Shown here: piece after piece, positions 2,453 through 36,036 of the stretch
Numbering within the stretch: the first letter of the stretch is position 1
Layout of the letters: each line of letters opens with the position of its first letter
Assembly (NCBI GenBank): GCA_013044185.1
Contig: JABEUX010000102.1
Location: 1 to 41,031, forward strand
Origin: Vulcanimicrobiota bacterium
GTDB taxonomy: Bacteria > Vulcanimicrobiota > Vulcanimicrobiia > Vulcanimicrobiales > Vulcanimicrobiaceae
Length of the DNA: 41,031 bases
Direction of reading: 5' to 3'
Notes under the pieces: generated by a model
Databases searched by the model: none
What the model saw: only the letters and a program-made list of their open reading frames with translations
Told to the model about the DNA's origin: nothing
Made by a program: the position numbers and the translations under genes

Positions 2453-4651
2453 ATGCGCTCTGCGTTCGTACTACTATTTTTTGTGGCTGCTGCGGCGCTC
2501 GCCGCATGCGGCGGCGGCGCGAGCAGCTCGCTTCCGGTGACAGACACTCCAACGAGTACTAGCGCGCGCCCGAGCGCCGCGCTTACCCTCCACTTTCCGG
2601 CTCCCTCGACTGCGAGCAGCGCTCGTTCCCCACGGTACCTCTCGCAGAACACCACCTCGGTCACCATCACCATCACCGCCGTCAACGGCGTTGCGCCGAG
2701 CCCCGCAATTCCCCCGACGACGATCGCGGTCGCACCGGGGCAAGGCAGTTGCACCGCCGTCGTGAGCGGCGGCTTCAGTTGCACCGCCACGGTAGGCGCG
2801 GTCGCCGGCAACGACACCTTCCTGATCCAAGCCTACGATAGCAGCGGCACGCTTCTCTCGTCGGGCAGCTTCACCGTCGCGGTGAATCCAACCGGCACCA
2901 CCACCGTCACGACGCCGCTCGTACTCGGCGGGGTCAGCGCGAGCACTTCGCTGGTGGCCCCCTCGCCGGGGCCGCAGAGCGACGGATCCGCGCTCACCAC
3001 GTCGGGTACGTGGGTTCCACCCGCCGACGGAACCCCGCGCACGCTCACCATCTCGGTCGTCGCGAAAGACGCCTCCGGAAATATCATCGTCGGACCGCTC
3101 GCGACGCCGATCCCTATCGCGCTCACCGATCCCAGCGGCGGCACGCTCTCGGAGAGCATCGTGCCAAGCGCGAATGCGAGCGGCGCAACGATAACCGCGG
3201 TGCCGACGACGGTTACGCTGACCTATAGCGGCGCAGCGTTTTACAGCGCGGCCTCGCCCGCACCGGGAACGCTCGCACTCGGCAGCGGGAGCGGCGCACC
3301 GACGATCGCGATCGCACCGCTGCAGGTGACGCCCTCGACCTCGCTCGCCAATGCAACGGTCGGCACTCCGTTTACGGTGACGGCGACCGAGGCGAATGCA
3401 ACGACGCTCACCTTCACGGCGACGGCGGCTTCGTCGGGCGGTACGTTCGAAGCGGCCTGCCCGGGCGCAACACCGCCGCCGAGCGGCGCAACGACGCTCT
3501 CCTGTACGACGAGCTCGGGAAGCGTTGCGTTCAACGTTGCGCCGACCGGCCTGGGCACCGGCGGATCGCTCGCGATCTCCGACGCGAACGGCGTCGACAT
3601 CAAGCAACCTTTCGACGTGACGCCGCGGAGCGGCGGCGGCATTACCGTTCCGCCGCACACGATACGTGAATTTCCGGACTTGAGCGTCGCCAACGCCACA
3701 GGCCTGAGCGTCGGGCCAAATGGAAACCATATTTGGTTCGGTGGCTCAAATGGATCCATGCACTCCTTTAGCCCTGCAAACTGCGCCCTTTCGCCGACAT
3801 CGTGCATATCGAACGAAGCGCTTTTACCGGGTACTTCGCACTATCCGGTCAACTTCGCTTCGTACCAAGGGCTCCTATGGTACACGGATGCATCAGCGAA
3901 TGGGATATTCAACCTTGCCCCATCCTCCGCGTGCTCGGGCACGACACCCGTCACTTGTACTGTTACGACCTCGCTTTCGGCAGGGTCATCGGTCACGGGT
4001 GACTTCGTCATCTCAAACTCGGGCTTCATGCTCTTTTCGACGCAAATTGCGGAGTACTACTCATACAGCCCTATTTCGCAGTCGTGGACCACGGTCTCAG
4101 AACCGAACCAACCAGTCCAAGCAGCATTGGGCCCGAACGGCAACGCGTTTCTAACCGAAAGGCCGACGGGTAGCGTTGCAGCGCTCGGCGAGATAACATC
4201 ACCGGGTTCACCGTCCACCGATTTCAGTTACAATTCGCTGACATTCTGCGCAACGACCGGGCAACTCGCCGATCCATACAATGATCTCAGCGGACTCGCA
4301 ACCGGCAGCGACGGGAATCTCTGGGTCGTCGAAGCGACGTCTCGGAAAGTCGACGTTCTCTCGACCGTCGGCACGACTCCATGCGTCGTTGCTCAGTATT
4401 CGCTTCCGGCTCCAATCGGCACGGCGACGATTCCGAACGTCTATTCCGTCGTCGATGGACCCGACGGAAACATTTGGATTACGGACCCACCGAACAACTC
4501 GATCGATCGCATTACCCCAAGCGGTGCCGTCACGGCCATTTCGATTCCTACGGGAAGCGCGAATCCCTATGATATCATCGTCGGTCCCGACGGGAATCTC
4601 TGGTTTACCGAATATAACGCCCCTAACATCGGCGAGATAGTTCTGCAATGA
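2453..4651 (+). CDS. Lipoprotein A1 of tandem array: Ig-like domain plus C-terminal Vgb/NHL-like propeller
   Basis: The 732-residue protein is exported and lipidated: residues 1-19 form a signal peptide with lipobox LAAC (Cys19) and a Gly-rich linker. Next come strand LTLHFPAP and the array motif RSPRY (58-62). A beta domain then carries a Cys pair (CTAVVSGGFSC) and a DASGNIIVG motif. From about residue 400 the protein becomes a propeller with repeats of the GPNGNHIWF, DGNLWVVE, DGPDGNIWITD and VGPDGNLWFTE type, as in virginiamycin-B-lyase-like and NHL proteins. No catalytic residues could be assigned. GGAGG at 2441-2445 gives an ideal start at 2453. Its TGA overlaps the next start (ATGA). 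Base composition becomes visibly more A/T-rich after about 3660, where the propeller begins. Confidence 0.85.
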   Translation: MRSAFVLLFFVAAAALAACGGGASSSLPVTDTPTSTSARPSAALTLHFPAPSTASSARSPRYLSQNTTSVTITITAVNGVAPSPAIPPTTIAVAPGQGSCTAVVSGGFSCTATVGAVAGNDTFLIQAYDSSGTLLSSGSFTVAVNPTGTTTVTTPLVLGGVSASTSLVAPSPGPQSDGSALTTSGTWVPPADGTPRTLTISVVAKDASGNIIVGPLATPIPIALTDPSGGTLSESIVPSANASGATITAVPTTVTLTYSGAAFYSAASPAPGTLALGSGSGAPTIAIAPLQVTPSTSLANATVGTPFTVTATEANATTLTFTATAASSGGTFEAACPGATPPPSGATTLSCTTSSGSVAFNVAPTGLGTGGSLAISDANGVDIKQPFDVTPRSGGGITVPPHTIREFPDLSVANATGLSVGPNGNHIWFGGSNGSMHSFSPANCALSPTSCISNEALLPGTSHYPVNFASYQGLLWYTDASANGIFNLAPSSACSGTTPVTCTVTTSLSAGSSVTGDFVISNSGFMLFSTQIAEYYSYSPISQSWTTVSEPNQPVQAALGPNGNAFLTERPTGSVAALGEITSPGSPSTDFSYNSLTFCATTGQLADPYNDLSGLATGSDGNLWVVEATSRKVDVLSTVGTTPCVVAQYSLPAPIGTATIPNVYSVVDGPDGNIWITDPPNNSIDRITPSGAVTAISIPTGSANPYDIIVGPDGNLWFTEYNAPNIGEIVLQ

Positions 4652-6594
4652 GACGGATCCGACGCAACATTCTCAAGCATCTCAAACATCTTCGCCGCGA
4701 ACTCGCAGCATCGGGGCTCGCGTTTGCGCTGCTCGCCGGTTGCGGCGGTGGTAGCGGTACGGGAGCCGGCATGCCGTCGCATGCGTTACCGACCGTTGGC
4801 GGGAACGGCACGCTCTCGCTTTCGTTACAGGTTCCCAGCCCGTCGCTGCAAGCGAATCGTCGCTCGCCGAAATACGTCTCGCCCGACACACAATATATCG
4901 GCATCAGTTATCTCTCCGGCGTCAACCAAACGTTTACGCCCGCGCAGATCGAGGCGCCGCAGGTGAATTTCGCCGTATCATCACCGACGGTCTGCGCGCT
5001 TCAAAGCAACGGTTCCCGCTTCTGCTCGGTCGCCGTTTCGCTGGCACCCGGAACCTACACCGTCGGCATCACTACCTGGGCCGCACCTCCTACCTCGGGC
5101 ACGTTCGCTGCAAGCAGCGAGCTTTCGCAAACGATTCTTCCATCTGAATATATCGCCCCCGGTGCGAATGCGGTGCTGGGAGCTCCCAATATCAATGCAT
5201 CGCTCGATGCCATCGCCTCGAAAATAGCAATTACGCCGCTTCCCGGACAGTCTCACCTCGTTGCTGCCGGTAGCGCCTATGAGATCGTCGGCACGACGCC
5301 CGCAGACTTTCTTGTCGAACCGACCGACGCCGCGGGCAACATCATTATCGGGGGAGCCGCGAACGGGGCACCAACCGTCGCCCTTGCGCCCGACGCGCTC
5401 GGCGACACCACGGTCACGCAAAATGCCGCAAACCCCAACGAGTTCGCCGTGCAGGTGGTGTCGTATAACTCCGCACCGCTCTCGCTCATCGCTTCGGCAA
5501 CACCGGCGGCAGGAAGCGGCCTCCCGGCGCTTGCCTCACCGCTCGCCATTCAAACGGTGCAAGAGCTTTGGCTCGCCAATACGACCACGGGCAGCCCGCT
5601 CGGCGGAATCGCCGGTTTTGCCCTCTTTCCGCCTGCTGCGGGATCCACCGGGTTTTCTCCGCCATCCATTAATGGGAATGCGATTCCGATCGATAGCGCA
5701 ACCTGCACTGCGCCGTGTAACCCGGCGCAAAACCTCGGCCCGCTTGTTGCGGACACCGTCCCGACCAGTTCGTCCCCGAGCGGTCTTTTGTGGGCAATAA
5801 ACGCAGGCACAACGCCTGCCGAGGTACTATCGTATGCTATCCCAACCAGTACGAACGGTGCAATTACCACGTCGGCAACGATTAGCCCCATCACCGTGCT
5901 TCAAAATTTTGGCGGCACGGTCCTCGGATCGGTCGCATCTGACGCGAATGGTAATGTTTGGTTGCTCGATAGCTACAATCTCAACGGGTATCTCGAAGAA
6001 TACTCGCCGCCGTCATATGCTTTAGGCGTTTCGCGGACGGCGTCATTCGCCTATTTCGGAGCGAACGGAATGAGCGATGACATTGCGATTCCACAACACG
6101 GACCTCTTACGGGGGATTTGGTTTTCATCGGCAAGCTTTCGGTAAACAGCCCGGACCTTGAAATTTTAGCAATACCACCGCCGTATTCGGCAGCAACCAC
6201 TAGCTCGGTGGTTACCGTCGCTGACGTCTCCGGATTTTATCCTGCGGCCTTCGCGATCTCGCCCGACGGAACGACGCTCTGGGTTGAAGACGGAAACACG
6301 ATGAAATACTTTACGCTCGGCGCCACCGGCGCAGCCTCGCTCGTCGCGGTACCCGCGAATCTTTTGTGCGTCGACCCTGCCGCCAGTTCCTCCGGCGGAG
6401 CTGCTACTGGGCTCGGGTTACAAATCGCGACCTCGTACAATGGTTCGGTTTGGACCACACCCGGCTCGACCGCCGACGGTGCCTGCGAATATCAGTTCAC
6501 CGGCACCGCTATATCTTGGACCAACTCCGTGGTCTATTACCAGGCACCAGGCGGGGGCAACCAGCAGCAGAGCGGCATCACCATAACGCCGTAG
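4648..6594 (+). CDS. Lipoprotein B1 of tandem array
   Basis: The 648-residue protein has a long basic N-terminus, a hydrophobic core and lipobox LAGC (Cys32), so it should be membrane-anchored outside the cytoplasm. It carries strand LSLSLQVP, motif RSPKY (72-76), a Cys pair (CALQSNGSRFC) followed by LAPGTYTVGI, the B-type segment PLPGQSH, and DAAGNIIIG. QELWL marks entry to a degenerate C-terminal propeller with DANGNVWLLD and SPDGTTLWVED. Start ATG 4648 overlaps the A1 stop by 4 nt, so translation is probably coupled. It is the second gene of unit 1. The C-terminal half (after about 5560) is more A/T-rich than the N-terminal half. Biochemical function unknown. Confidence 0.8.
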   Translation: MRRIRRNILKHLKHLRRELAASGLAFALLAGCGGGSGTGAGMPSHALPTVGGNGTLSLSLQVPSPSLQANRRSPKYVSPDTQYIGISYLSGVNQTFTPAQIEAPQVNFAVSSPTVCALQSNGSRFCSVAVSLAPGTYTVGITTWAAPPTSGTFAASSELSQTILPSEYIAPGANAVLGAPNINASLDAIASKIAITPLPGQSHLVAAGSAYEIVGTTPADFLVEPTDAAGNIIIGGAANGAPTVALAPDALGDTTVTQNAANPNEFAVQVVSYNSAPLSLIASATPAAGSGLPALASPLAIQTVQELWLANTTTGSPLGGIAGFALFPPAAGSTGFSPPSINGNAIPIDSATCTAPCNPAQNLGPLVADTVPTSSSPSGLLWAINAGTTPAEVLSYAIPTSTNGAITTSATISPITVLQNFGGTVLGSVASDANGNVWLLDSYNLNGYLEEYSPPSYALGVSRTASFAYFGANGMSDDIAIPQHGPLTGDLVFIGKLSVNSPDLEILAIPPPYSAATTSSVVTVADVSGFYPAAFAISPDGTTLWVEDGNTMKYFTLGATGAASLVAVPANLLCVDPAASSSGGAATGLGLQIATSYNGSVWTTPGSTADGACEYQFTGTAISWTNSVVYYQAPGGGNQQQSGITITP

Positions 6595-6672
6595 CCCCAG
6601 GCGGCGCAGGAGCCCGCGCCTCTGCGTCGCGAACCTTATTTCGCAGCACCGAAGAGTCGCGTGAGGTTCAAT

Positions 6673-9093
6673 ATGCTCCGAGCAGTCGGTTTTTCTATGT
6701 CGCTCCTGGCCCTCGCTCTTGCGATCGCCGGCTGCGGCGGGGGCGGCGCATCGAGTGCGCTGCCGCCGAGTTCCGGGGGCGGAGCCTCCCTCGCGCGGAG
6801 CAACGCAGCGATGACATTTCATTTCCCGCCGCCCTCATCGACAGCGAGCAGCGCGCGCTCCCCGCGCTATCTTTCGGCGAACACGAAATCGATCGTCATC
6901 ACGCTTACGGCGGTCAACGGCACGCCGCCGAGTCCGGCGATTCCGCCAACGACGCTCGCCGTCGCCCCGGGGCAAGGAAGTTGCACCGCGCTCACCTCAC
7001 AGGGCTTTAGCTGCACCGCCACCGTCGGCGCGCTCGGCGGTAACGATACGTTCCTCGTTCAAGCGTACAGCGGAGCGAACGGCACCGGCAGCTTGCTCTC
7101 CTCCGGCAGCGTGACCATTGCGGTCGCATCGAGCGGCACCACGACCGTCACGACGTCGCTCGTCCTCAGCGGAAATGCAACCTCGTTCGCAGTCGCCTCA
7201 CCGAGCCCGAACCCCGCAATCGGCGTCGTGGTTTCCGGCAGCAGCGTCACGCTCTATCCGATCGCCGATGGCGCGCCGCACAGCGTCACCCTCACCCTCG
7301 CCGCGTTCGACGCGAGCAACAGCGAGATCGTCGGCCCGATTGCTTCCCCTATTCCGGTCACCGTTTCCGGCAGCGGGATATCGCTGACATCGAGTGCCTT
7401 CGCAAGCGGCACGAGCAATATCGTGCAATCGCCCGCGCAGATCACCGCGACGCTCACCGCGAGTTACACGGGACAACCCGGCGGTACGATAACCGCGAAC
7501 GGAGCCGGGAGCATCACCATCGGTGTCGGCGGCGTTGCCGGCACCGTGAACGTCGTGCCGTTCGTCATCGCCACCGCCTCACCGGGGCCGGCGAATCTCG
7601 TCGCCGGCGGCTACCCACAGGCGTTGCAACTCCAGGAGGCCGGAGCAACGAGTTTCACGATCGCCGGAATCGGCACCACGACGTCGGCGACGGTTGCGGG
7701 GCCACCCTCCGCCTGCACGCCGAACGGCTCGACGCTCACCTGCACCGCAACGAACGGCGTCGTCACTGGGCTGACGCTCGTGCCGAATGCGGCAATCTCC
7801 GGCACGACGAACTTCACCGTCGGCGACGGGCATGGCGCGAACTTTAACCTCGCGGCCTCGGTCGCGGGACAAGCGGGTGGGACGCCCACCTTCCCGACGA
7901 GCTACGCCGTAACGCAGATCGCGGTGACCCCGCCGCCGGGCGGTTATTCGGCGACGAAACTCGGTGGGATCGCGCTTGGCCCCGACGGGCAGACGCTCTA
8001 CACGCTCGCGGTCTCCTCGCCGGGACCGACCGACGCCGTCAATCTGCTCGCGATTACCTCGAACGGCTGCTCCAGCGCCGGTTGCGCGCCGACGCTCGCG
8101 GCATATCCGCAGCCAACTCCCGAGCCGACGGCGGCCCCGGCCACCAACGGCTTCCTCAATCCGAACCCTGGCTTCATCGCGCTCGGCGGCGACGGGAACC
8201 TCTGGGTCGCCGATACCAAGACCGACGCGCTCACCGCGATCGGCCTCCCCTGCAACGCAACGACAGCTCCGCCATGCGTTCTCGCACAAGGCTCGCCGGC
8301 GACATTCACCATGACGGGATCCGGGCCACCCTACAACGCCATTCTCGGCGCGAGCGGCAGCACGATCGTAGCAACGAACGATTCGAACGCGAGCGACTTG
8401 GCCGGGCTGCTCACGGCATCGACCTATGCGGGCTTCCCTCCCTTCGGGCTCAATCTCTTTCCGCCGAGCGGTGGTCCGGCGAGCCCGGTAACCGGGCTTG
8501 CCACTGCTGCGGCGCCGAGCGCCGTCGCTTCTTACGGCGCAACCGATGTTTACGCCCCGGCCGGCTCGCTGCTCGATGCGCTCGCTCCTGCGGCCTATCA
8601 GGTGGTCGCGTCGTACGAACTGGGGAGCGGCACTGCTCCAACGGGCACGAAGACCATCAGCGCATGCGCGACCGGCGGAGTGACGATCTCCGGCACGATC
8701 GCGCAGACCGGCGCAATTGCGACCGACGCGCAAGGAAATCTCTGGCTCTCGGCGCTCACCAACGGCAGCGCGACTCCGGCGAACGCGCAGGTTTTCGTCG
8801 AGATCGCCCCGCTTTCGAGCGGGCTCTGCGGGAAAGCGATCGTTCCGGTGCGGACGACGGCGCTCGCATCGCAGATCGTGTTGGGCCCCGACGGCAACCT
8901 CTGGTATATCGTCCCTGGCGTTGCGCAGATCTATCGCCTCGCGCCGACGCTGCTCGGTACGGCAACCCCTGCAGTCAGCGCATTCCCGCAGAGGCCGCTG
9001 AACGGCGTCCCGATCGAACTCGCGCCCGGCGGCGACGGTAACATTTGGTTCACTGAGACCGGCGGCACGCTCGGTGCGCTGGAATTGCACTAG
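6673..9093 (+). CDS. Lipoprotein A2 of tandem array
   Basis: The 806-residue A-type paralogue has a clean signal peptide with lipobox IAGC (Cys21) and a Gly-rich linker. It then shows strand MTFHFPPP, RSPRY (62-66), ITLTAVNG, a Cys pair (CTALTSQGFSC) and a DASNSEIVG segment. The A-type motif EAGATSF precedes the propeller, whose repeats include LGPDGQTLYTL, GGDGNLWVAD, DAQGNLWLS, LGPDGNLWYI and GGDGNIWFTE. I prefer ATG 6673, because GTGAGG at 6661-6666 is a well-placed ribosome binding site and the signal peptide is compact; GTG 6661 is the alternative and adds four residues. The first ~200 residues closely resemble A1, also at DNA level, indicating tandem duplication. The stop lies 12 nt before B2. 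Confidence 0.82.
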   Translation: MLRAVGFSMSLLALALAIAGCGGGGASSALPPSSGGGASLARSNAAMTFHFPPPSSTASSARSPRYLSANTKSIVITLTAVNGTPPSPAIPPTTLAVAPGQGSCTALTSQGFSCTATVGALGGNDTFLVQAYSGANGTGSLLSSGSVTIAVASSGTTTVTTSLVLSGNATSFAVASPSPNPAIGVVVSGSSVTLYPIADGAPHSVTLTLAAFDASNSEIVGPIASPIPVTVSGSGISLTSSAFASGTSNIVQSPAQITATLTASYTGQPGGTITANGAGSITIGVGGVAGTVNVVPFVIATASPGPANLVAGGYPQALQLQEAGATSFTIAGIGTTTSATVAGPPSACTPNGSTLTCTATNGVVTGLTLVPNAAISGTTNFTVGDGHGANFNLAASVAGQAGGTPTFPTSYAVTQIAVTPPPGGYSATKLGGIALGPDGQTLYTLAVSSPGPTDAVNLLAITSNGCSSAGCAPTLAAYPQPTPEPTAAPATNGFLNPNPGFIALGGDGNLWVADTKTDALTAIGLPCNATTAPPCVLAQGSPATFTMTGSGPPYNAILGASGSTIVATNDSNASDLAGLLTASTYAGFPPFGLNLFPPSGGPASPVTGLATAAAPSAVASYGATDVYAPAGSLLDALAPAAYQVVASYELGSGTAPTGTKTISACATGGVTISGTIAQTGAIATDAQGNLWLSALTNGSATPANAQVFVEIAPLSSGLCGKAIVPVRTTALASQIVLGPDGNLWYIVPGVAQIYRLAPTLLGTATPAVSAFPQRPLNGVPIELAPGGDGNIWFTETGGTLGALELH

Positions 9094-9105
9094 GAGATCG
9101 CGACG

Positions 9106-11217
9106 ATGCATCGAGATTCGGCGTTCACTCTATCGCGCGCACTCGCCGCGAGCACCGTCGCACTCGCGTTCTTTGCAGGATGCGGCGGGGGCGGGGCCTC
9201 CTCGGCATTGCCGAATGCCGGCGGTGGCCTCCCATCGGCTTCATCCTCCGGGCGGATCACACAAAAACTCTCGTTGCTGATTCCGGCGAAAGGCTTTGCG
9301 AGCAGCCGTCGCTCCCCGCAATACACATCGATCGCGACCAAGGGCATCGGCATCTCGCTCGTGTTGCAAGGGAAGAGCGCGCCGACGAACCCGGCGACGC
9401 TGACATCGCCCGACGTTGCGATCGATCTTACGACGACGCCGATATCGATCGTCGGCGATCTGGGGCCGAGCGGACAAAGCATTTCGTGCACCACGGTGAC
9501 GACGCCGCAACCAGGGCAGAATTGCACGCTCGCGCTCTCGTTGCCGACCGACGTCGCCGAGATCGTCGTCAACGCGTGGGACGCCGCACCGGCGACGGGG
9601 AGTACGAGTTTTTCGCCGACGGCACAGTTGCTCTCCAGCGCGGTCGCGGCGGTGGCGGTGAGCAGCGGTGCGCCCGGCCCGACGATAGCGCTGGTGCTCG
9701 ACGGTATTCCCGCAGCGTTGCGCATCGTGCCCGCCGCGGGGCAATCGCATTTCGTTCTCAGCGGCAATGGCGGCGCGGCGGCGGCGACCTATACCGAGAT
9801 CGGCTCCGGCCTTGTCGGCGTGACGTTCGACGCTCTCGATGCCGATGGGAACATCATCATCGGCAACGGCGCCCCGACCGTGCAGTGGCAGATCGCGCAG
9901 AACGGCACGTCGGTGCTCTCCGGCAATATTGCCAGCGGCCTTCCGACGAACCTGAGCATCGCACCCTTCCTCACGAACGCCGCTGCGTTCGCTTCCTCGT
10001 TCGCGCTCACCGCGACGGCTTCGACGCCGAGCGGTTCGCCGCTCTCCACGTCGATCGCCATCCAACCCGCGCAAGAACTCTGGCTTCCGGGCAACAGTGT
10101 CATGGGCGCAACGACTAGCCGCGGCCCCCAAGCGATCGGCGGAGCGAGCGCGGCGACCGGTTACGAGATTCCGCCGTCGACCGGCGCGCTGATGTCACCG
10201 GTCCTCCTGGGAACCGATACCATCGCCGCTTCATCGCTCACGCGGTGCCCGAACGTTCCCGCCGGTTCAACGCCCGCTCCGTTTAACATCCCCTTGGCCC
10301 TCGCCGCCGATCCAACGGGGAATCTCTGGCTGCTCGTCGCGACGCCTTACTCGTCGGGAACGGGCTCCGGGCAAGCGTCGTGCGCCGAAGGCTTCGCCGT
10401 GCAAAATACGGCGAACCCGCCGCAGCCGCTCGCAAATTCTCTGCGTCTCCTCTCCTCCACCGACACCTTTACCGGTTGTGCGATCGATCGTTTCGACACG
10501 CTCTGGTGCGTCGACTCAACCGCCGATACGCTCGTTGGATACGATCTGCAGGCTGCGGGAACCGCCCCCTTCTCGACGCCGAACGTCACGCTACCGATCT
10601 CGCTCCCGCCCGCCGGCGCGCCCAAAACCCCGATCGCGATCGCGGTGCAACCCGGCGGCACGAATCTCTGGCTGGCGATGGCGGCGAGTGCCGTCGGAAC
10701 GGCGACGACCACCACGTTCTATGCGCGCGCGATACCGATAACGACGGCGAGTTCGTCCGCGCCGAGCCTCGGTACGCCGAGTAACTGGGCGCAATTTGGC
10801 AACTCGTACGTTTCGACCGACGTCCCGAACAGCGCGATTCCGGTTCCCGATCCGCCGCTCGCCGTCGATGCAAACGATAACATCTACTCCGTCGATGTCG
10901 GGAACGAGAGCGGCGGCCCCCCCGTTCAAGCGCCGCTCATCGCGATGTGGCAGCCCTCGCTCGGCGGCGGGAATCTCTCCTTCGGCACCCCTCCGAACGC
11001 GAGTACGCCCTATCTCTTTGTTGGAAGCGGTCAAAACATCTCGAACGTCGACGAACCGTTTGCGATCGCGCCCGACGGAACGCTCTGGGCCGCCAATTCA
11101 GGCCAAAACAACATTACGCCGTACGCGGTATCGAGCGGCACCCTCACCGTCAACGCTCTGCTCGGCCCGATTTCGTTACCCCTCTCGCCGCTCTCCGGCT
11201 TCACCATCGCGCCCTAG
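9106..11217 (+). CDS. Lipoprotein B2 of tandem array
   Basis: The 703-residue B-type paralogue has a signal peptide with lipobox FAGC (Cys26) followed by a Gly run. It has strand KLSLLIP, RSPQY (69-73), KGIGISL, a Cys pair (CTTVTTPQPGQNC) and LALSLPTD. The B-type block DGIPAALRIVPAAGQSHF, the motif DADGNIIIG and the propeller-entry motif QELWL follow. Propeller repeats include DPTGNLWLL, DRFDTLWCVD, VDANDNIYSVD and APDGTLWAAN. AGGAG at 9092-9096, overlapping the A2 stop, supports ATG 9106. Unlike several siblings, base composition appears even along the gene. Predicted location is the cell envelope; ligand and partner are unknown, though tight coupling with A2 suggests joint function. Confidence 0.82.
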   Translation: MHRDSAFTLSRALAASTVALAFFAGCGGGGASSALPNAGGGLPSASSSGRITQKLSLLIPAKGFASSRRSPQYTSIATKGIGISLVLQGKSAPTNPATLTSPDVAIDLTTTPISIVGDLGPSGQSISCTTVTTPQPGQNCTLALSLPTDVAEIVVNAWDAAPATGSTSFSPTAQLLSSAVAAVAVSSGAPGPTIALVLDGIPAALRIVPAAGQSHFVLSGNGGAAAATYTEIGSGLVGVTFDALDADGNIIIGNGAPTVQWQIAQNGTSVLSGNIASGLPTNLSIAPFLTNAAAFASSFALTATASTPSGSPLSTSIAIQPAQELWLPGNSVMGATTSRGPQAIGGASAATGYEIPPSTGALMSPVLLGTDTIAASSLTRCPNVPAGSTPAPFNIPLALAADPTGNLWLLVATPYSSGTGSGQASCAEGFAVQNTANPPQPLANSLRLLSSTDTFTGCAIDRFDTLWCVDSTADTLVGYDLQAAGTAPFSTPNVTLPISLPPAGAPKTPIAIAVQPGGTNLWLAMAASAVGTATTTTFYARAIPITTASSSAPSLGTPSNWAQFGNSYVSTDVPNSAIPVPDPPLAVDANDNIYSVDVGNESGGPPVQAPLIAMWQPSLGGGNLSFGTPPNASTPYLFVGSGQNISNVDEPFAIAPDGTLWAANSGQNNITPYAVSSGTLTVNALLGPISLPLSPLSGFTIAP

Positions 11218-11226
11218 TCGCGCGGG

Positions 11227-11250
11227 CCTTGGGCCCGGCCGGGGCCAAGG
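11227..11250 (+). terminator. GC-rich hairpin between units 2 and 3
   Basis: CCTTGG (11227-11232) pairs with CCAAGG (11245-11250), and CCC (11234-11236) with GGG (11242-11244), leaving one bulged G and a 5-nt loop. It sits 9 nt after the B2 stop. No T-run follows, so it may be an attenuator, an mRNA-stabilising hairpin or a weak terminator. Confidence 0.35.
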
Positions 11251-11297
11251 GTTGACCGGAAAAATTGCGAAGCCTGCCTCCTCGGAGGAAAGCAAGT

Positions 11298-13724
11298 ATG
11301 CGGCGGTTCGGTGCGTTCGGATTCTTCCTATTTCTGGCGGCGGCGGTCGTCGCCGGCTGCGGAGGCGGTGGCTCCGGCAACTCCTCTACGTTGCCGGCAC
11401 ACGGTGGCGCCGGCGGCACCGCTCAGCAGGCCGCACTGCAGATCTTTATTCCGGAACCCGCGAGCGCGAGCGTCGCACGAGCCCCGCAGTATATCTCCGC
11501 GAGTACGAAATCCATCGTCATCACGCTCACCAGCGTCAACGGCGTGCCGCCCGCCCCATCCGTGCCGCCGACCGTTTTCAATATTAGCGTGCCGCCGTGC
11601 TCCACCGTCAGCGGCGGAATCAGTTGCAGCGTTACCGTCGGCGCGATCCTCGGCACCGACGTCTTTACCATCGATGCATACGACGCGGCAAACGGCAGTG
11701 GCAATATTCTGAGTAGCGGCACTCTTTCCGTCGCTGTCGGGCCGGGAACGAATACGCCGCCGCCGATCGCGCTCGGCGGCAACGTCGCCAAGGTCGTGGT
11801 GACCGCGCCTCCGAGTCCGAGTGCCTCCCCGGCGCCGAACGGCGTTTTAACACCGACGATTGACGGCACCGTCAACAGCATCCAGGTGAGCGTGGCAGCC
11901 TACGATGCGAGCGGCAATCTCATCGTCGGCAGCGCACCCTTTGCGTCGCCGATTCCCATCACGCTCGTCGGCGATCCCAACGGCGCGCTCACCTTCTCGC
12001 CGAGTTCGGTGATCGCTCCGAACCAAAACGTGGTTACGTTGGGAACGAGCGGCAAAATGTTTTACGCGACGCCTTCGCCGGCGCAGCCCGCTCCGACACT
12101 TTCGACCGCGACGATAACCTTTGGGCCGAGCGGTGCGAACGGCACGACGTTTACCATCGATCCCGTCCAGTTCGATATGCCGAGCGGCGGCTTGAACAAC
12201 GTTTTGCCGGCGCCGGCGACGACCACGCTCGGCGTACAAGAGGCCGGAGCGACCTCGTTTATCGTCAGCGCCTTTTTCCCGAGCAGCACGCAGACGCCGT
12301 TCGTCGGCGAATGTGGTAGCACGTTTACGAGCTCTCCCTCACTCGTGCCGTTGACCTGCACGGCGTCGAGCGGCAACGCCTTCGTTACACTGCAATCCCT
12401 TGCGGGCGGCAGCGGCACGTTGAGCGTTACCAGCAGCGACGGCTCGCATGGTGGAACCCCATTTACCGCGCTCGGTGCGCAAGGCGGAAGCGCGACGCTC
12501 GGGTACACGGTGCTGCTCTGGAGTATGCCGAATCACGGCGTCGCTCCGAACCAGGACATTCCCACGAGTATGACGACCGGGCCGGGCGGGCAACATCTCT
12601 GGGTCGCGGCCTCCAACACAGCGCTCGGTGGATCGGTGACGGCGATTCCCGCGCAGAACCTCGCCACATGTTCGGCGGCGAGCTCTCCGTGCAACGCCGC
12701 GAGCACACATCAAGCAACCCTTCCGCAGGCGACATTTGCACCCGCTCCTTATGTACCCGCTCCTGGGAGCATCGTCGCCGGCGGCGACGGGAACATGTGG
12801 TACACCGATCTCGGGACGAATTCGCTCACCAATCAAACCCTCGGCTACTTCACCGCAAGCGCGTGTATCATTGCCACGACCTGCGCAATTCCAAACTCGT
12901 TCGCCGGCGGGCCCGGGACCACCAGCGTTCAGGTATTCTCATCGTCGCCGGAGGCAATCGCCGACGGAGGCGACGGGAATATCTACATGCTCTTTGGGAA
13001 TACATCGGGCGGAGGAGCGGTTAGCGCGGCCTCATATTCAGGCTTCCCATCCCCAAGCATCCTTACGCCAGAATCGCTAACAACTCTAGCGCCGGGCGTT
13101 AGCGGTCCGATTGCCGAGGGAATCGTTCGCGGCCCCGATGGCGCGATGTGGATGAGCGTCGACGATCCGAACTTCGGCTCCGGCCCGACGAGCGCGATCG
13201 TTGAGTTTTCGAATTGCGTAAGTGGCGGGTCATTTTCTTGCTCGAACACGCACGCAAGCTCAAAGCAATTCCCCGAAAATGAAGCGACGAGCCCCGGGAG
13301 CGGGCCCTACCACCCCGGCGAGATCGTGGCAGTGCCGGCGGCGAACGATCTGTGGTTCATCAATCACGGCAGCAGCACGAGCCCAGTCGTCGCTCCGTTC
13401 ATCGCATCGATATCCTCGGCAACGACGAATTACGGAACATTTGGCGCGCGCATACCGATTCCAAACGCAGCCTCGGTAAGCGGCACGCTGCTTCTCGGTT
13501 CCGACGGCAATCTCTGGTTTCCGATAACGACAGCCTCGGGCAGCAATGAAATCTGCCGCTATACGTTGGTTACCGCTGCAAGTGGAACACCGCAATTCTA
13601 TTGCGCGACGATCCCGCCGGTCGCCGGAATCTCGTACCCGGCGGGGCCGATGGCGGTCGGGCCCGATGGAAATATCTGGTTCGGTTTAGTCGGCGCGCCG
13701 TACGTCGGGGAGGTTGTTCTGTGA
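11298..13724 (+). CDS. Lipoprotein A3 of tandem array
   Basis: The 808-residue A-type paralogue starts at ATG 11298, with GGAGG at 11284-11288; an upstream in-frame start at 11265 would bury the signal peptide. The lipobox is VAGC (Cys21). The array motif is altered to RAPQY (61-65), after strand LQIFIPEP. ITLTSVNG, a Cys pair (CSTVSGGISC), DASGNLIVG and the A-type EAGATSF follow. The propeller shows GGDGNMWYTD, GGDGNIYMLFG, GPDGAMWMSVD, LGSDGNLWF and GPDGNIWFGL repeats. The gene ends in a GTGA overlap with B3. The stretch from about 12900 to 13480 is more A/T-rich than its surroundings. The ribosome binding site can pair with CCTC just upstream (see findings). Confidence 0.82.
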   Translation: MRRFGAFGFFLFLAAAVVAGCGGGGSGNSSTLPAHGGAGGTAQQAALQIFIPEPASASVARAPQYISASTKSIVITLTSVNGVPPAPSVPPTVFNISVPPCSTVSGGISCSVTVGAILGTDVFTIDAYDAANGSGNILSSGTLSVAVGPGTNTPPPIALGGNVAKVVVTAPPSPSASPAPNGVLTPTIDGTVNSIQVSVAAYDASGNLIVGSAPFASPIPITLVGDPNGALTFSPSSVIAPNQNVVTLGTSGKMFYATPSPAQPAPTLSTATITFGPSGANGTTFTIDPVQFDMPSGGLNNVLPAPATTTLGVQEAGATSFIVSAFFPSSTQTPFVGECGSTFTSSPSLVPLTCTASSGNAFVTLQSLAGGSGTLSVTSSDGSHGGTPFTALGAQGGSATLGYTVLLWSMPNHGVAPNQDIPTSMTTGPGGQHLWVAASNTALGGSVTAIPAQNLATCSAASSPCNAASTHQATLPQATFAPAPYVPAPGSIVAGGDGNMWYTDLGTNSLTNQTLGYFTASACIIATTCAIPNSFAGGPGTTSVQVFSSSPEAIADGGDGNIYMLFGNTSGGGAVSAASYSGFPSPSILTPESLTTLAPGVSGPIAEGIVRGPDGAMWMSVDDPNFGSGPTSAIVEFSNCVSGGSFSCSNTHASSKQFPENEATSPGSGPYHPGEIVAVPAANDLWFINHGSSTSPVVAPFIASISSATTNYGTFGARIPIPNAASVSGTLLLGSDGNLWFPITTASGSNEICRYTLVTAASGTPQFYCATIPPVAGISYPAGPMAVGPDGNIWFGLVGAPYVGEVVL

Positions 13725-15712
13725 AACGCTTACTATCGCTCGCTCTCGTGACATCGCTCGCGGCCTGCGGCGGCGGTGGCGGCGCAACCGGAGCGCTTCC
13801 GACCGGATCGACGCCCCTCGCTGCGGGGAAGTCGCTGGTGAAAATCACGCTCGCCGTGCCGCAAGCGCAGCTCCAAGTGCATCGTCGTTCTCCGAAGTAT
13901 ATCGCGCCGACGACGAAGGGCTTCGGTTTTGATTTCGCAAGCACCACCAGTGCACTGAATCCGGCGGCACCGACGGTTGCCGTTAATTTCTCGAATCTCG
14001 CCGCTCCGAGCATCGCCGTCGATACCTACGGCGGCAGTAGTGTAACTTGCACGAACAACCCGGACGGCAGCGCGACGTGTGCGTTCAGCCTTACGGTGCC
14101 GACGAGTACGACACCGTACATCCTGCAAGTTTCGACATTCGATACGGCCCCAAGCACGACCGGCGCAATATTTAACAGCGCCGATCTTCTTTCGCAGCAG
14201 ACGTTCACGAACGTGAGTGTTGCCGCCGGAACGCCGACCGCTCCACTCGCGCTCGTGCTCGACGGCGTTCCCGCCAGCACGGAGGTGGCGCCGCTGCCGA
14301 ACCAGGTGCATCTCCAAGCGAACGGCGGCGGCTACACGATCGTCGGCATGGTGCCCGTGCAAGCATATATCTACGGGCTCGATCGCGACGGCAACGTCAT
14401 CGTCGGCGACGGCGCGCCGCAGATCTGCGTGCAATCGCCTGTCGATACGGCGACGAGCGCGCCCTATATTGCCGTCAGCGTATCGTCGCCGGGAACGGGG
14501 CCCGCCGGCGAGACCTGCGATAACGCGCCGACGACCACGCCGATATGGACGCTGCAGACCAAGAGTTGGAGTGCAACGCCGCTCAACCTCACCCTCAACG
14601 CCGTCGCGAGCGGCCCATCGCCGAATGGTGGGCCAGGAACGGCGGCGACGAGCACCGTGTCGCTGAGCGAAGAGCAAGAGCTCTGGGTGACTATGCCTGC
14701 GATGTCGGGGACGCAGGATATTCAAGGATACGCTTTTTCCACAGGAACGCCGCCGAGTATCATCTCGTCGGACCTCGGAATCATTCCGTCGTCGAGTGCG
14801 ACGATCTATGGCTACGGGGGCATGGCGGTCGATTCGAGCGGTAATCTTTGGCTAGCGCCCAACAACGGCTCGAGCGATTACCTTTGCGTCAGCCAACCGC
14901 AAACCGGCGCGCTTGCAATCACTCAGGCGTCATGTTCCGCTGAAAGCTATGTAGGTGGAGGCAGTTTCGGTATTTCTATCGCTACGACCACGATCGGCAG
15001 TCAGCAGTTCGGCTTCATTCTCGACGCGAACTTCCAGCAGGTTACTGCCTACCCACTTCAAGTCCCATCTCCGTCGACGAGCGCGAGTACGATTCAATCG
15101 TTTAGTCCAAGCACGCTCTTTACAGGCACGAATTCAGGTTTAGCGGCGGATTTTAACACCGTGCCCTCACTTGCGATTGCCCCCGCGACACTCGCCGCTC
15201 CCGCGGCGGGCTCGCTTTGGATCGATGGTTATCCGAGCAGCGGAGCCAACTTGTATCTCGCGGGGATTTCGCTCTCGGCGAGTGCGGCTCCGAGCCTCGC
15301 AACGAGCGGCGCCACCAGTATAACCCCGGAGCTTACTGGAAACCAATTTCTCGGCCCCGCGGATAATATGTCGATCGACGACGCAGGCCACATTTTTGTC
15401 GCTGAAAACGAATATAATCCAAATTTGTTCACCGCCCAAGAGGACATCTTCGGCTTTCAGATTCACTCCGGCCCACCGCTATCGGTAACAGCGATAGGAA
15501 GCGGATATATTCCCGCGAGCAACCCCAACGGCGGAACGCAACACAGCATGGCCGTCACCTACCAAGGCACGATCCTCGAATCGTACCAGACGGGCTCGAC
15601 GCGCGGGTTCTATGAACTCTCTGAACCGTCTTCTGGCCCCATCACCGCGATTCAGAGCATCCTCAATGACCCCGTTCTAGGCTCGGCGAGCGGAATCGTC
15701 GTGACGCCCTAG
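13721..15712 (+). CDS. Lipoprotein B3 of tandem array
   Basis: The 663-residue B-type paralogue starts at GTG 13721, whose GTGA overlaps the A3 stop; GGGGAGG lies just upstream at 13707-13713. The frame is open further upstream, but only this start yields a signal peptide, with lipobox LAAC (Cys16) and a Gly run. Strand VKITLAVP, RSPKY (56-60), a Cys pair (CTNNPDGSATC), LDGVPAS and PLPNQVHLQ are B-type marks. DRDGNVIVG and QELWV follow. The propeller is weaker than in A3: DSSGNLWLAP and SIDDAGHIFVAE are the clearest repeats. The region after about 14680 is more A/T-rich than the N-terminal half. Function unknown; probably an envelope lipoprotein made together with A3. Confidence 0.8.
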   Translation: MKRLLSLALVTSLAACGGGGGATGALPTGSTPLAAGKSLVKITLAVPQAQLQVHRRSPKYIAPTTKGFGFDFASTTSALNPAAPTVAVNFSNLAAPSIAVDTYGGSSVTCTNNPDGSATCAFSLTVPTSTTPYILQVSTFDTAPSTTGAIFNSADLLSQQTFTNVSVAAGTPTAPLALVLDGVPASTEVAPLPNQVHLQANGGGYTIVGMVPVQAYIYGLDRDGNVIVGDGAPQICVQSPVDTATSAPYIAVSVSSPGTGPAGETCDNAPTTTPIWTLQTKSWSATPLNLTLNAVASGPSPNGGPGTAATSTVSLSEEQELWVTMPAMSGTQDIQGYAFSTGTPPSIISSDLGIIPSSSATIYGYGGMAVDSSGNLWLAPNNGSSDYLCVSQPQTGALAITQASCSAESYVGGGSFGISIATTTIGSQQFGFILDANFQQVTAYPLQVPSPSTSASTIQSFSPSTLFTGTNSGLAADFNTVPSLAIAPATLAAPAAGSLWIDGYPSSGANLYLAGISLSASAAPSLATSGATSITPELTGNQFLGPADNMSIDDAGHIFVAENEYNPNLFTAQEDIFGFQIHSGPPLSVTAIGSGYIPASNPNGGTQHSMAVTYQGTILESYQTGSTRGFYELSEPSSGPITAIQSILNDPVLGSASGIVVTP

Positions 15713-15800
15713 AGGCCATCGAAAGAGGAGTCGCGACTACCAGGGCGTAACGGCGCGGGGCGTTTTCTCTTTCAATCCATCTACGCCGAGGTATCCGCCC

Positions 15801-16946
15801 ATGCGAGGAGGTTCTCTCTCTCTGCTCTTCGTTTTTGCGCTCGCTGCATGCAGCGGTGGCGGCGGGGGGAGCCCGATTGGAACCCCGAGTACGCCGGCCC
15901 CACCACCGCCGCCGGGGAACGGCGGAACGACCACTATCCCGACGCATTTTGTGATCGGCGCTCCGCCTTCGTCGACCTCGGCCCTTAGCAGCTCGCGCAG
16001 CCCGCAGTACGTTCCGACGACCGTGCAATCGGTAACGATTACCCTCGATACGGTCAATGCAGCATCGCCTCCAAGCGGACTCACCACGACCGCCACCGAT
16101 AACATCTCGGCGCCGAGTTGTCCCTGCGTGGTGAACGGCCCCTCGGTCCCGCCGGGAAGCGACGGCTTCACCATCACGACTTACGACCATACGGGCGGCA
16201 CCGGGAACGCCATCTCCGTCGCCACGCCGACGATCGCGATTACCGCCGGGACGACCAACAACGTGACGATTACGCTCGCGGGAATCCCAAAAACGCTGGC
16301 GATCAGCGGCATCCCGAGCGCGAGCGCGGGCACGGCGCTCGCTGCAACCGCGTTGAGCGTCGCGGCGAAGGATGCCGACGGCAACACGATTACCGGCCCG
16401 TACGCTTCGCCGATTACGCTCGCCGATGGCGATACGACCGGGGCGAGCACGTTCGCCACTTCTGGCAGCGATTCACCGCCGACGCGCGAGCTGCTCAGCT
16501 CGACGGATACTGCGACGCTCGCCTATACGGGGCTCGCCATTCTCCCGGCGACGCTCACGGCAAGTGCGACCGGGGCGACGAACGGCACCGCGACCTTCAC
16601 CCCGACGCTTCAACCGATCGTTTACAGCGGCCCGCTCAACGGCTCGACGCCGGAGATCGATCTCTATGCGACGAGCGGCTTCGGTTCGACGTTCTCGTAC
16701 AACGTCTCGGAGGCCGGTTGGACGAACTCACCATACGGAAAGGCACTATCGCTCAATGCGAGCGCTTGCAGCACGTTTGCAACGGCATCTGCGGGCGTCG
16801 ATGTTCCCGCGAGCGGAACGCCGATCACCGTGACCGCGATTGCATCGCCCTCCGCAGGAACCTGCACGATGACGGTGAGCGACCCATTCGGCCAGACGAA
16901 ATCGGTAACGGGAACCTATACCGTCACTGGTATCGGCATCCAGTAG
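15801..16946 (+). CDS. Lipoprotein A4 of tandem array, short form without propeller
   Basis: The 381-residue protein has lipobox LAAC (Cys17), a Gly/Ser run and a Pro-rich linker. RSPQY (66-70), ITLDTVN, a modified Cys cluster (CPCVVNG), a DADGNTITG motif and a variant EAG motif (NVSEAGW) make it a clear A-type paralogue. It ends about where A1-A3 begin their propellers, after an Ig-like strand TYTVTGIGIQ, so it has only the N-terminal half of the family architecture. No frameshift or disrupted propeller DNA was seen before B4, so this looks like a clean loss or an ancestral short form. CGAGG at about 15787-15791 supports ATG 15801. B4 starts 12 nt after its stop. Confidence 0.78.
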   Translation: MRGGSLSLLFVFALAACSGGGGGSPIGTPSTPAPPPPPGNGGTTTIPTHFVIGAPPSSTSALSSSRSPQYVPTTVQSVTITLDTVNAASPPSGLTTTATDNISAPSCPCVVNGPSVPPGSDGFTITTYDHTGGTGNAISVATPTIAITAGTTNNVTITLAGIPKTLAISGIPSASAGTALAATALSVAAKDADGNTITGPYASPITLADGDTTGASTFATSGSDSPPTRELLSSTDTATLAYTGLAILPATLTASATGATNGTATFTPTLQPIVYSGPLNGSTPEIDLYATSGFGSTFSYNVSEAGWTNSPYGKALSLNASACSTFATASAGVDVPASGTPITVTAIASPSAGTCTMTVSDPFGQTKSVTGTYTVTGIGIQ

Positions 16947-16958
16947 CTGGAGTTACCG

Positions 16959-17900
16959 ATGCGTTTGCTCGTTCGGCTCGCCCGTGCGCTCGTTCTCTGC
17001 GCCGGCCCGGCAGCAGTCGCTGCATGTGCGGGAACCGTCCACCTGGCAACGGGCGCCGTGCCGAAACGCTTGCCGAACGGCGCGACGATTCGCATCACCA
17101 TTCCGAAGAAGAGCGCATCGGGGCGCGGCGCGCAATACGTCTCGCCGGCAACGACGCAGATGACGATCGATATCGAGCAGGGCGGCGTTGCAGTCAGCGG
17201 CTATCCGCAGACGATCGGGCTCACGCCGACATCGACGGGATGCACGAGTACGCTCGCTAACACGCTCTGCCAACTCTCGCTCGCGCTCGCTCCAGGTGCG
17301 TACACCGCGACGATCTCCTTGCTCGATGCATCGAACAACACGCTCTCGAGCGCACAGAGCGTCCCATTCACCGTCGTCGCCGGAACGAACAATACGATTC
17401 CGATCGTGCTCGGCGGCATCCCGCACGCGATCGATCTCACGCCGGTGGACGCGCCGAACAGCATCGGGCCGAGCGGGCTCGCGATCTCGTCAACCGGCTA
17501 CGGCAGCGCGACGCTCACCGTCGTTGCAACCCCGAGCAACGGCAGCGCACTCGACGAGCAAATATCAGCATTAGCAACTACCCTTGTGAAGACGCTCGCC
17601 GGTTCGACAACGAGTGGATTCACCGATGGAACGGGGAGCGCTGCCTCCTTTAATATCCCAACAGGCATCTCATATCATGCTAGCAACGGTGACCTCTACG
17701 TTACCGACAGCTCCAACTGCGCGATCCCACAAGTCACCACCGCAGGGGTCGTCACCACGGTCGCCGGATCACCGGGCGACTGCACCTTCGCAAGGGGCTT
17801 GGGCAGCTCGATCGATCATCCGGTCGGCATTACCTACGACGGAACGAACGGGCTTCTCTACATCACCGACTCGAACGCCATACAATCGCTGCAACTCTAG
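16959..17900 (+). CDS. Lipoprotein B4 of tandem array, short, with NHL-type C-terminus
   Basis: The 313-residue protein has a signal peptide with lipobox AAAC (Cys23). It keeps the strand IRITIP, a degenerate array motif RGAQY (56-60), a Cys pair (CTSTLANTLC) and LALAPGAYTATI. After about residue 200 it changes to classic NHL repeats: TLAGSTTSGFTDGTGSAASF, then GDLYVTDSSN and GLLYITDSNA. These differ from the DGNLW repeats of the other members, and only about two are present before the stop, so no full propeller can form from this chain alone. GGAG at about 16949-16952 supports ATG 16959. The gene may be a truncated or recombined copy. DNA after about 17560 is more A/T-rich. It closes the array. 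Confidence 0.72.
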   Translation: MRLLVRLARALVLCAGPAAVAACAGTVHLATGAVPKRLPNGATIRITIPKKSASGRGAQYVSPATTQMTIDIEQGGVAVSGYPQTIGLTPTSTGCTSTLANTLCQLSLALAPGAYTATISLLDASNNTLSSAQSVPFTVVAGTNNTIPIVLGGIPHAIDLTPVDAPNSIGPSGLAISSTGYGSATLTVVATPSNGSALDEQISALATTLVKTLAGSTTSGFTDGTGSAASFNIPTGISYHASNGDLYVTDSSNCAIPQVTTAGVVTTVAGSPGDCTFARGLGSSIDHPVGITYDGTNGLLYITDSNAIQSLQL

Positions 17901-33868: not shown

Positions 33869-34549
33869 ATGGACGCTACCGTGAAGCAGCGGCGCATCGT
33901 CGTCGTCGAGGACGACGCGGCGATCGCGCGCGTACTCCAGCTCGAACTCCAGCATGAAGGCTACCACGTCGACCTCGCGCAGAACGGCGTCGAAGGGCTC
34001 GAACTCGCGCTCAAAGAGCCCGACCTCGTCATTCTCGATCTCATGCTGCCGCGCATGGACGGCATGGAAGTCTGCCGACGCATTCGTGCGAAGAGCCGCG
34101 TACCGATTATCATGCTGACGGCGAAGGATCGCGTACCCGATCGCGTCGCCGGGCTCGACATCGGCGCGAACGACTACCTCACGAAGCCCTTCGCCACCGA
34201 AGAACTGCTCGCGCGCGTGCGCGCGCAATTGCGCGAACGCGAACCGCAGGATCGTTCGATCGTCTATAAGGACGTCGTTATGGATCGCGATCGCCACGAG
34301 GTGCGCCGCGGCGGCAAAGAGATCGCACTGACGGCAAAAGAGTATGCGCTACTCGAGTATCTCTTGCTCCACCGGAACAAGGTCCATACGCGCGACGAGC
34401 TCTTCAATGGCGTCTGGGGTAGCGATTTTCTCGGCGACTCGAACCTCATCGATGTCTACGTCCGCTACTTGCGCGGCAAACTCGAAGAGGGATTCGACGA
34501 AAAACTCATCTCTACGGTGCGCGGCATCGGCTACACCATCAAGGATTAG
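33869..34549 (+). CDS. Two-component response regulator, OmpR/PhoB family
   Basis: The 226-residue protein has a receiver domain with acidic pair VVVEDDAAIA, phospho-acceptor Asp57 in LVILDLMLPRMDG, the Thr switch in IIMLTAKD and Lys in DYLTKPF. The C-terminal winged-helix domain has LTAKEYALLEYLLLHRNKV, DSNLIDVYVRYLRGKLE and STVRGIGYTI. It is activated by phosphotransfer from the histidine kinase encoded 27 nt downstream. It starts 24 nt after the putative anti-sigma gene with no visible terminator, so transcription of all five genes together is likely. Targets are unknown; the exported DUF4097-like gene at the end of the cluster is one candidate. Confidence 0.96.
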   Translation: MDATVKQRRIVVVEDDAAIARVLQLELQHEGYHVDLAQNGVEGLELALKEPDLVILDLMLPRMDGMEVCRRIRAKSRVPIIMLTAKDRVPDRVAGLDIGANDYLTKPFATEELLARVRAQLREREPQDRSIVYKDVVMDRDRHEVRRGGKEIALTAKEYALLEYLLLHRNKVHTRDELFNGVWGSDFLGDSNLIDVYVRYLRGKLEEGFDEKLISTVRGIGYTIKD

Positions 34550-34576
34550 CGGCGTGCGCTCGAACGCCCGCGCGGC

Positions 34577-36001: not shown

Positions 36002-36036
36002 CGCGCGGAGCCCCTCCGCGCTATCCTGGGAGAACG

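Follow-up and report, generated by a model that had tools for sequence, protein, structure and literature searches.

A tandem array of paired lipoproteins with predicted Ig-like domains and beta-propellers at a fixed chromosomal site in the Vulcanimicrobiaceae

The lipoprotein array and its products

The window, a stretch of 41,031 nucleotides, belongs to a Candidatus Eremiobacterota MAG of 2.08 Mb (73% complete, 215 contigs); all comparisons rest on metagenome assemblies. Its left part holds eight lipoprotein genes in four A-B pairs, flanked by genes that are conserved at this site in relatives.

1-1464, forward: RND (HAE1-type) efflux pump gene, 3' part; left flank, conserved at this site
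1589-2404, forward: glycosyltransferase-2-like gene between RND pump and A1 (PF00535, E 1e-3, below cut-off)
2453-4651, forward: A1, lipoprotein with three predicted Ig-like domains and a Vgb-type beta-propeller; mosaic gene
3651-4600, forward: exchanged head segment of A1, from identity profile and dS; borders approximate
4648-6594, forward: B1, lipoprotein with two predicted Ig-like domains; propeller-like head from about 5500 on
6673-9093, forward: A2, lipoprotein of the long-A type
9106-11217, forward: B2, lipoprotein of the B1-3 type
11298-13724, forward: A3, lipoprotein of the long-A type; ATG at 11298 preferred over TTG at 11265
13721-15712, forward: B3, lipoprotein of the B1-3 type; GTG start, 4-nt overlap with A3
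15801-16946, forward: A4, short-A lipoprotein without propeller; second pair type
16959-17900, forward: B4, NHL-propeller lipoprotein, shortened, 313 aa
18685-19854, reverse: TauE/SafE-like permease ORF, conserved right flank; true start inside the ORF
19440-21605, reverse: RelA/SpoT, conserved right flank

An earlier note had described a strict alternation A1 B1 A2 B2 A3 B3 A4 B4, which was confirmed when the gene coordinates were rechecked. The spacings given there are exact, both within the pairs (-4, 12, -4 and 12 nt) and from pair to pair (78, 80 and 88 nt). We do not, however, share its reading of the equal spacing as a sign of unit duplication: the inter-pair spacers share no sequence with one another (similarity within that of shuffles) but are conserved against the orthologous spacer in relatives, so each distance has been passed on at its own position, and equal spacing by itself does not speak for duplication. 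No RNA features were found in the window with Rfam or ARAGORN, and promoter and terminator scans gave little above shuffles.

All eight products are lipoproteins, as had been proposed: each has a signal peptide and a lipobox with Cys at +1, followed by a Gly/Ser/Pro-rich linker. Residue +2 is Gly, Ser or Ala, and the Asp retention signal is absent. A1-A3 are mutually ∼ 30% identical over long stretches (E down to 1e-54) and B1-B3 are 28-30% identical (E down to 7e-25), while similarity between A and B is mainly limited to the N-terminal part. The motifs P-x-x-x-Q-x-H and QELW claimed for B1-B3 are present, and EAGATSF is literal in A2 and A3, with the variants EANATTL (A1) and EAGWTNS (A4). 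Two other motifs are more restricted in their literal form: ITLTxVNG is literal in A2 and A3 and reads ITITAVNG in A1 and ITLDTVNA in A4, and the IGIS-like strand attributed to the B proteins is literal in B1 and B2 and in no other B.

The A proteins consist of the lipobox, three predicted Ig-like domains (the stalk) and a Vgb-type beta-propeller (the head), the propeller being absent from A4; the B proteins have two predicted Ig-like domains and a propeller-like head. Pfam places the Vgb-type propeller at the C-terminus of A1-A3, and PF24684 is present in 15/15 long A proteins, with the best match in A1 spanning ∼ 120 of 290 positions. NHL repeats (PF01436) score 40.5 bits in B4 (cut-off 20); in B1-B3 they do not rise above the cut-off, propeller models match weakly there, and the B profile matches NHL/Pizza propellers. 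No Pfam match was obtained for A4, and the curated Pfam Big domains gave a single sub-threshold match (Big_3_3, E 0.08). The AlphaFold2 model of A1 (mean pLDDT 68.5) has a propeller preceded by three beta-sandwich domains. That of B1 (mean pLDDT 49.7) shows two reasonable beta-sandwiches and a poor head (pLDDT < 50); domain counts in both models are our own reading of the strand order. The N-terminal beta-sandwiches of A1 and B1 are mostly predicted at pLDDT 70-88. Foldseek places the A1 head beside streptogramin B lyase (2qc5/2z2o, TM 0.74-0.75 by target), and the B1 stalk weakly resembles the Ig-like domains of S-layer proteins and InvD (E about 1e-4).

The glycosyltransferase-2-like gene has relatives that are 57-79% identical in G006, G007, G008 and G009; none was seen in G002 or beyond the genus. 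It is much less conserved than its flanks (94-99%).

Two pair types and amplification at one site

Trees of the stalk domains resolved four groups, long A (A1-A3), short A (A4), B1-3 and B4, each forming one side of a branch. The mixing of A and B members that would have spoken against two subfamilies was not seen, and the branch between A and B was supported at 98/89 and 99. An alternative tree joining long A with B1-3 was not rejected (AU p 0.31). The A and B stalks are distant paralogues, since the B profile matches A3 at E 4e-13. These trees indicate two pair types, one of long A with B1-3 and the other of short A with B4. A single duplication series of four pairs was rejected, pair 4 being of the other type, and the array is thus made up of three pairs plus one.

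The long-A/B type has a fixed place in the family. Five other genera carry a single A-B pair, in four of them at exactly the same locus, in the order RND pump - [A-B] - TauE - RelA. Single long-A/B pairs stand between RND pump and TauE/RelA in G060 (g44), G090 (g50), G093, G094 and G095 (g52) and G019 (g11), with an orthologue of the RND pump adjoining the pair in all six; in G093 and G094 the pair has the order B-A. Further pairs lie elsewhere in G019 and in G022 (g14). The site is empty in other genomes, where the pump orthologue adjoins TauE/RelA: RND and TauE are side by side, or nearly so, in G015, G080, G022, G029, G085, G013 and G033, as are RND and RelA in G020. Within the genus of the window, G002 has pairs 1 and 2, G006 pairs 1 and 3, G007 pairs 1-3 with a short A and two B4-type genes, and G008 pairs 1 and 2, which enclose a short-A pair. 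Single pairs and empty sites between the same flanks identify the array in the window as an amplification at a fixed site, and pairs 1-3 are, on this comparison, a genus-specific amplification of one pair.

The proposal that a two-gene module was duplicated as a unit therefore stands for pairs 1-3, on the single pairs at the same site, the empty sites and the congruence of the A and B trees, and fails for pair 4. When the two topologies were compared as the earlier note had suggested, using full-length trees of 23 A proteins and their 23 B partners, 13 of 20 splits were common to both (maximum under label permutation, 2). Patristic distances in A and B correlate at 0.86, and relabelling of pairs within genomes reached the value observed for the genus in 12 of 5000 trials. 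Pairs 1, 2 and 3 each form one clade in both trees. The order of branching conflicts, (P1,P2),P3 for A against (P2,P3),P1 for B, with moderate support in both. Genomes that usually keep A and B homologues apart, which would have spoken against the pairing, were not seen: A and B are adjacent in 8/8 long-A/B pairs examined outside the genus, even in the two genomes where the order is B-A, and all eight B1-3-type genes examined there have an A-type or A-like lipoprotein beside them, the partner at L174 being highly diverged. Against pairing, the partner is absent at L163 and L170, and six B4-type genes stand in tandem without an A gene at L072.

At E 1e-25, 37 of the 99 family genomes encode short-A-like proteins, as do three genomes from a neighbouring family in the order; the remainder of the class yielded none. 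Among loci with enough downstream sequence, the short A is followed by a propeller-type or related lipoprotein, or by another short A and then one, in ∼ 17 of ∼ 20 (our own count); the expected lipoprotein is missing at L154, L163 and L170. NHL repeats occur in 11/11 B4-type relatives, and some heads match Lactonase, Arylesterase or SGL models. Pair 4 is a separate, older pair type, found independently elsewhere as well.

B4 itself is missing the greater part of the second Ig-like domain and of the NHL blades that its G007 neighbours of 597 and 613 aa possess, and may be a real deletion or fusion or else a collapsed repeat assembly. Its reading frame (16959-17900) is intact, and its C-terminus resembles the following gene of G007. 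Three more B4-type NHL lipoproteins lie in the same genome as the window (L022, C199, 1872-5674; L023, C186, 76-1995); two of them overlap by 4 nt, and no A gene was seen on these short contigs. At L072 (G008:C27, 3114-14044) the six B4-type genes are nearly identical and arranged head-to-tail; this is a recent tandem amplification that arose independently in a species of the window's genus. A B4-type gene at L179 (G095:C5, 11570-13204) is divergent to the long-A/B pair at the RND-TauE-RelA site; as this is the site in another genus, the second pair type may have entered it more than once. As an exception to the pairing of short A with B4, the gene that follows the short A has an A-like stalk, nearer to A than to B, at L057 (8391-10136, G008) and at L066 (3226-5196, G009); the former encodes a complete Vgb-type propeller (PF24684, E 6e-119) and the latter an unclassified C-terminus.

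Exchange of heads on conserved stalks

A1 of the window is a mosaic. Its stalk is 90% identical to that of G006 and its head 43%, whereas against G009 the stalk is 71% and the head 87% identical. At the DNA level there is a sharp breakpoint at ∼ 3650, where identity to G006 drops from 94 to 50% and identity to G009 climbs to 83-97%; where B1 starts, all identities are again equally high. The dS between A1 and its G009 counterpart is 0.20 in the head and 0.79 in the stalk. The flanking RelA is 97-99% identical between the same species. A second case of this kind is A1 of G009 against G003 (stalk 91%, head 42%). The A1 mosaic might still be an assembly chimera of this one MAG, but the recurrence of the pattern between G009 and G003 speaks against it, as does a dS in the head that is 0.20 and not zero.

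In pair 1 generally, stalks are mostly 55-94% identical between species and heads 28-45% between alleles. A1 has two head alleles in the genus. B1 has four (window and G003; G007, G002 and G006; G009; G008), whose heads are 28-35% identical between alleles on stalks of 55-94%. The alleles of A1 and B1 are not linked one to one, the window and G003 sharing the B1 type and not the A1 type. Between species, the A1 and B1 heads have thus changed partners independently of each other, and this speaks against a head-to-head match being obligatory. Clear exchange was found for pair 1 and for the C-terminus of A4, whose C-terminal third is a different allele from that of G007 (dS 0.95 against 0.19 for the rest); in pairs 2 and 3 no such exchange was detected, and stalk and head evolve in step. 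Related stalks, those of the B4 group and of the G008 gene after the short A, bear heads of several kinds: complete Vgb propellers (E 1e-121, 1e-119), lactonase, NHL and unclassified ones. Heads have therefore also been shuffled on related stalks on a longer time scale. Purifying selection acts on all genes (dN/dS 0.10-0.44).

Possible roles of the paired lipoproteins

At the level of sequence, pairing, unit duplication, purifying selection and the replacement of pair-1 heads on conserved stalks are established. One ancestral A-B pair would have stood between the RND pump gene and TauE-RelA and been duplicated as a unit in the genus to give two or three pairs, with the second, older type (short A and NHL-propeller B) added to the array. 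In each protein the lipid anchor, the linker and the Ig-like domains would keep the C-terminal beta-propeller, which A4 lacks, at a distance from the membrane. A diderm envelope, with genes for BamA and LPS, has been reported for the phylum Eremiobacterota (PMC6664022), and the genome of the window has one Omp85 match. We infer from the diderm envelope and the lack of Asp at +2 that the proteins are probably located on the outer membrane and face outwards.

The reading we favour, though we judge it only evenly balanced, is that these are amplified pairs of envelope proteins, lipid-anchored, conserved in the stalk and variable in the head, that act as surface-facing binders whose heads can be exchanged. 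The propellers would be non-catalytic binding domains for an external ligand, a surface or a neighbour, A and B would cooperate via their stalks, and selection from outside the cell would drive head replacement. Replacement of heads between species on stalks that are kept is what would be expected if the head meets something variable outside the cell. We regard as rather unlikely the more specific model of a two-component surface recognition system, in which A and B would form a composite receptor or adhesin and the heads would be interspecies cassettes giving serotype-like variation through the replacement of alleles at a fixed site.

Enzymatic heads (lyase, lactonase or arylesterase-like) are less probable again. 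The array would then be a set of cell-bound enzymes for different substrates, natural antibiotics for example, with A and B in one pathway. Among solved structures, those closest to the A head are streptogramin B lyases, the lactonase, arylesterase and SGL matches of some B4-type heads point the same way, and an RND pump is the neighbour. The catalytic histidine of Vgb, mutated in the inactive H270A structure 2z2p, lies in a PH[AG]I motif. None of the heads of the 23 A and 23 B proteins has the corresponding Pro-His-[AG]-hydrophobic motif (H270; also H228); its two matches among these 46 proteins are both in stalks, and the positions aligned to the catalytic His hold other residues. A1 matches less than half of PF24684, and the VgbA and VgbB NCBIfam models reached 55.7 and 48.2 bits (cut-off 600). 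With the histidine motif missing from all heads, they are unlikely to be Vgb enzymes, and a Vgb-type antibiotic lyase was rejected. The RND-TauE-RelA order occurs without a pair too, and its position therefore does not make the pump a functional partner.

Two further explanations seem to us improbable, and about equally so. Ig-like stalks, Gly/Ser/Pro-rich linkers, tandem amplification and the weak likeness of the B1 stalk to S-layer domains would suit structural envelope components, a surface-layer-like coat or sheath, amplified for dosage and differing by neutral drift; yet the paralogous pairs, ∼ 30% identical, are not dosage copies, and the contrast in dS between the head and stalk of A1 reflects exchange rather than drift. 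Outer-membrane lipoproteins can face the periplasm, and do so by default, and bacterial NHL propellers occur as sensor ectodomains (PknD, 1rwl), which would fit periplasm-facing sensors or assembly factors; no sensor kinase lies beside the array, however, and head replacement between species suggests contact with something variable outside the cell. An anti-phage defence system was rejected for want of a PADLOC match at E 0.01, and a polymorphic toxin system because the C-termini are propellers and the following gene is a homologous lipoprotein, with no immunity gene.

Parts of the proposed surface binders have known counterparts. The A head shares fold and sequence family with virginiamycin B lyase (PF24684; 2qc5, 2z2n/2z2o), but A has a lipid anchor, three Ig-like domains in front and no catalytic His motif, and is paired with B in a tandem array. 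B4-type heads are canonical NHL-repeat domains (PF01436; PknD 1rwl, Pizza, TRIM NHL) and B1-3 heads match them weakly; unlike those proteins, B is a lipoprotein with an Ig-like stalk and a companion of A. Bacterial Ig-like surface proteins (InvD, SbsC/Sap), which the B1 stalk weakly resembles, have tandem Ig-like domains before a distal domain, as is predicted for A and B; in A and B a lipid anchor replaces the beta-barrel or SLH anchor, and the tip is a propeller. Polymorphic secreted systems of the Rhs/CDI type have exchangeable C-termini on a conserved N-terminal part, and the array shares with them the conserved N-terminal part, the replaced C-terminal part and a sharp breakpoint, but has no toxin domain or immunity gene, and the downstream gene encodes a homologous exported lipoprotein. 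A search of the open-access literature for Eremiobacterota lipoprotein or NHL arrays returned nothing relevant, and the array would seem to be an undescribed surface-type system.

In poorly cultivated bacteria of this kind, lipoproteins with beta-propellers are common, and a function is known for hardly any. The comparison offers a clean design, with one ancestral pair, a fixed site, an empty site, amplified arrays and replaced heads, that makes testable both the target recognised by a pair and the driver of head replacement (phage, predators, competitors or surfaces). It also serves as a worked case of how the envelope diversifies in a phylum of which very few members are in culture.

Further along the window (33869-37158), an OmpR-type response regulator and a HAMP histidine kinase are followed by an ORF of 386 aa that has no Pfam match and begins at a 4-nt overlap.
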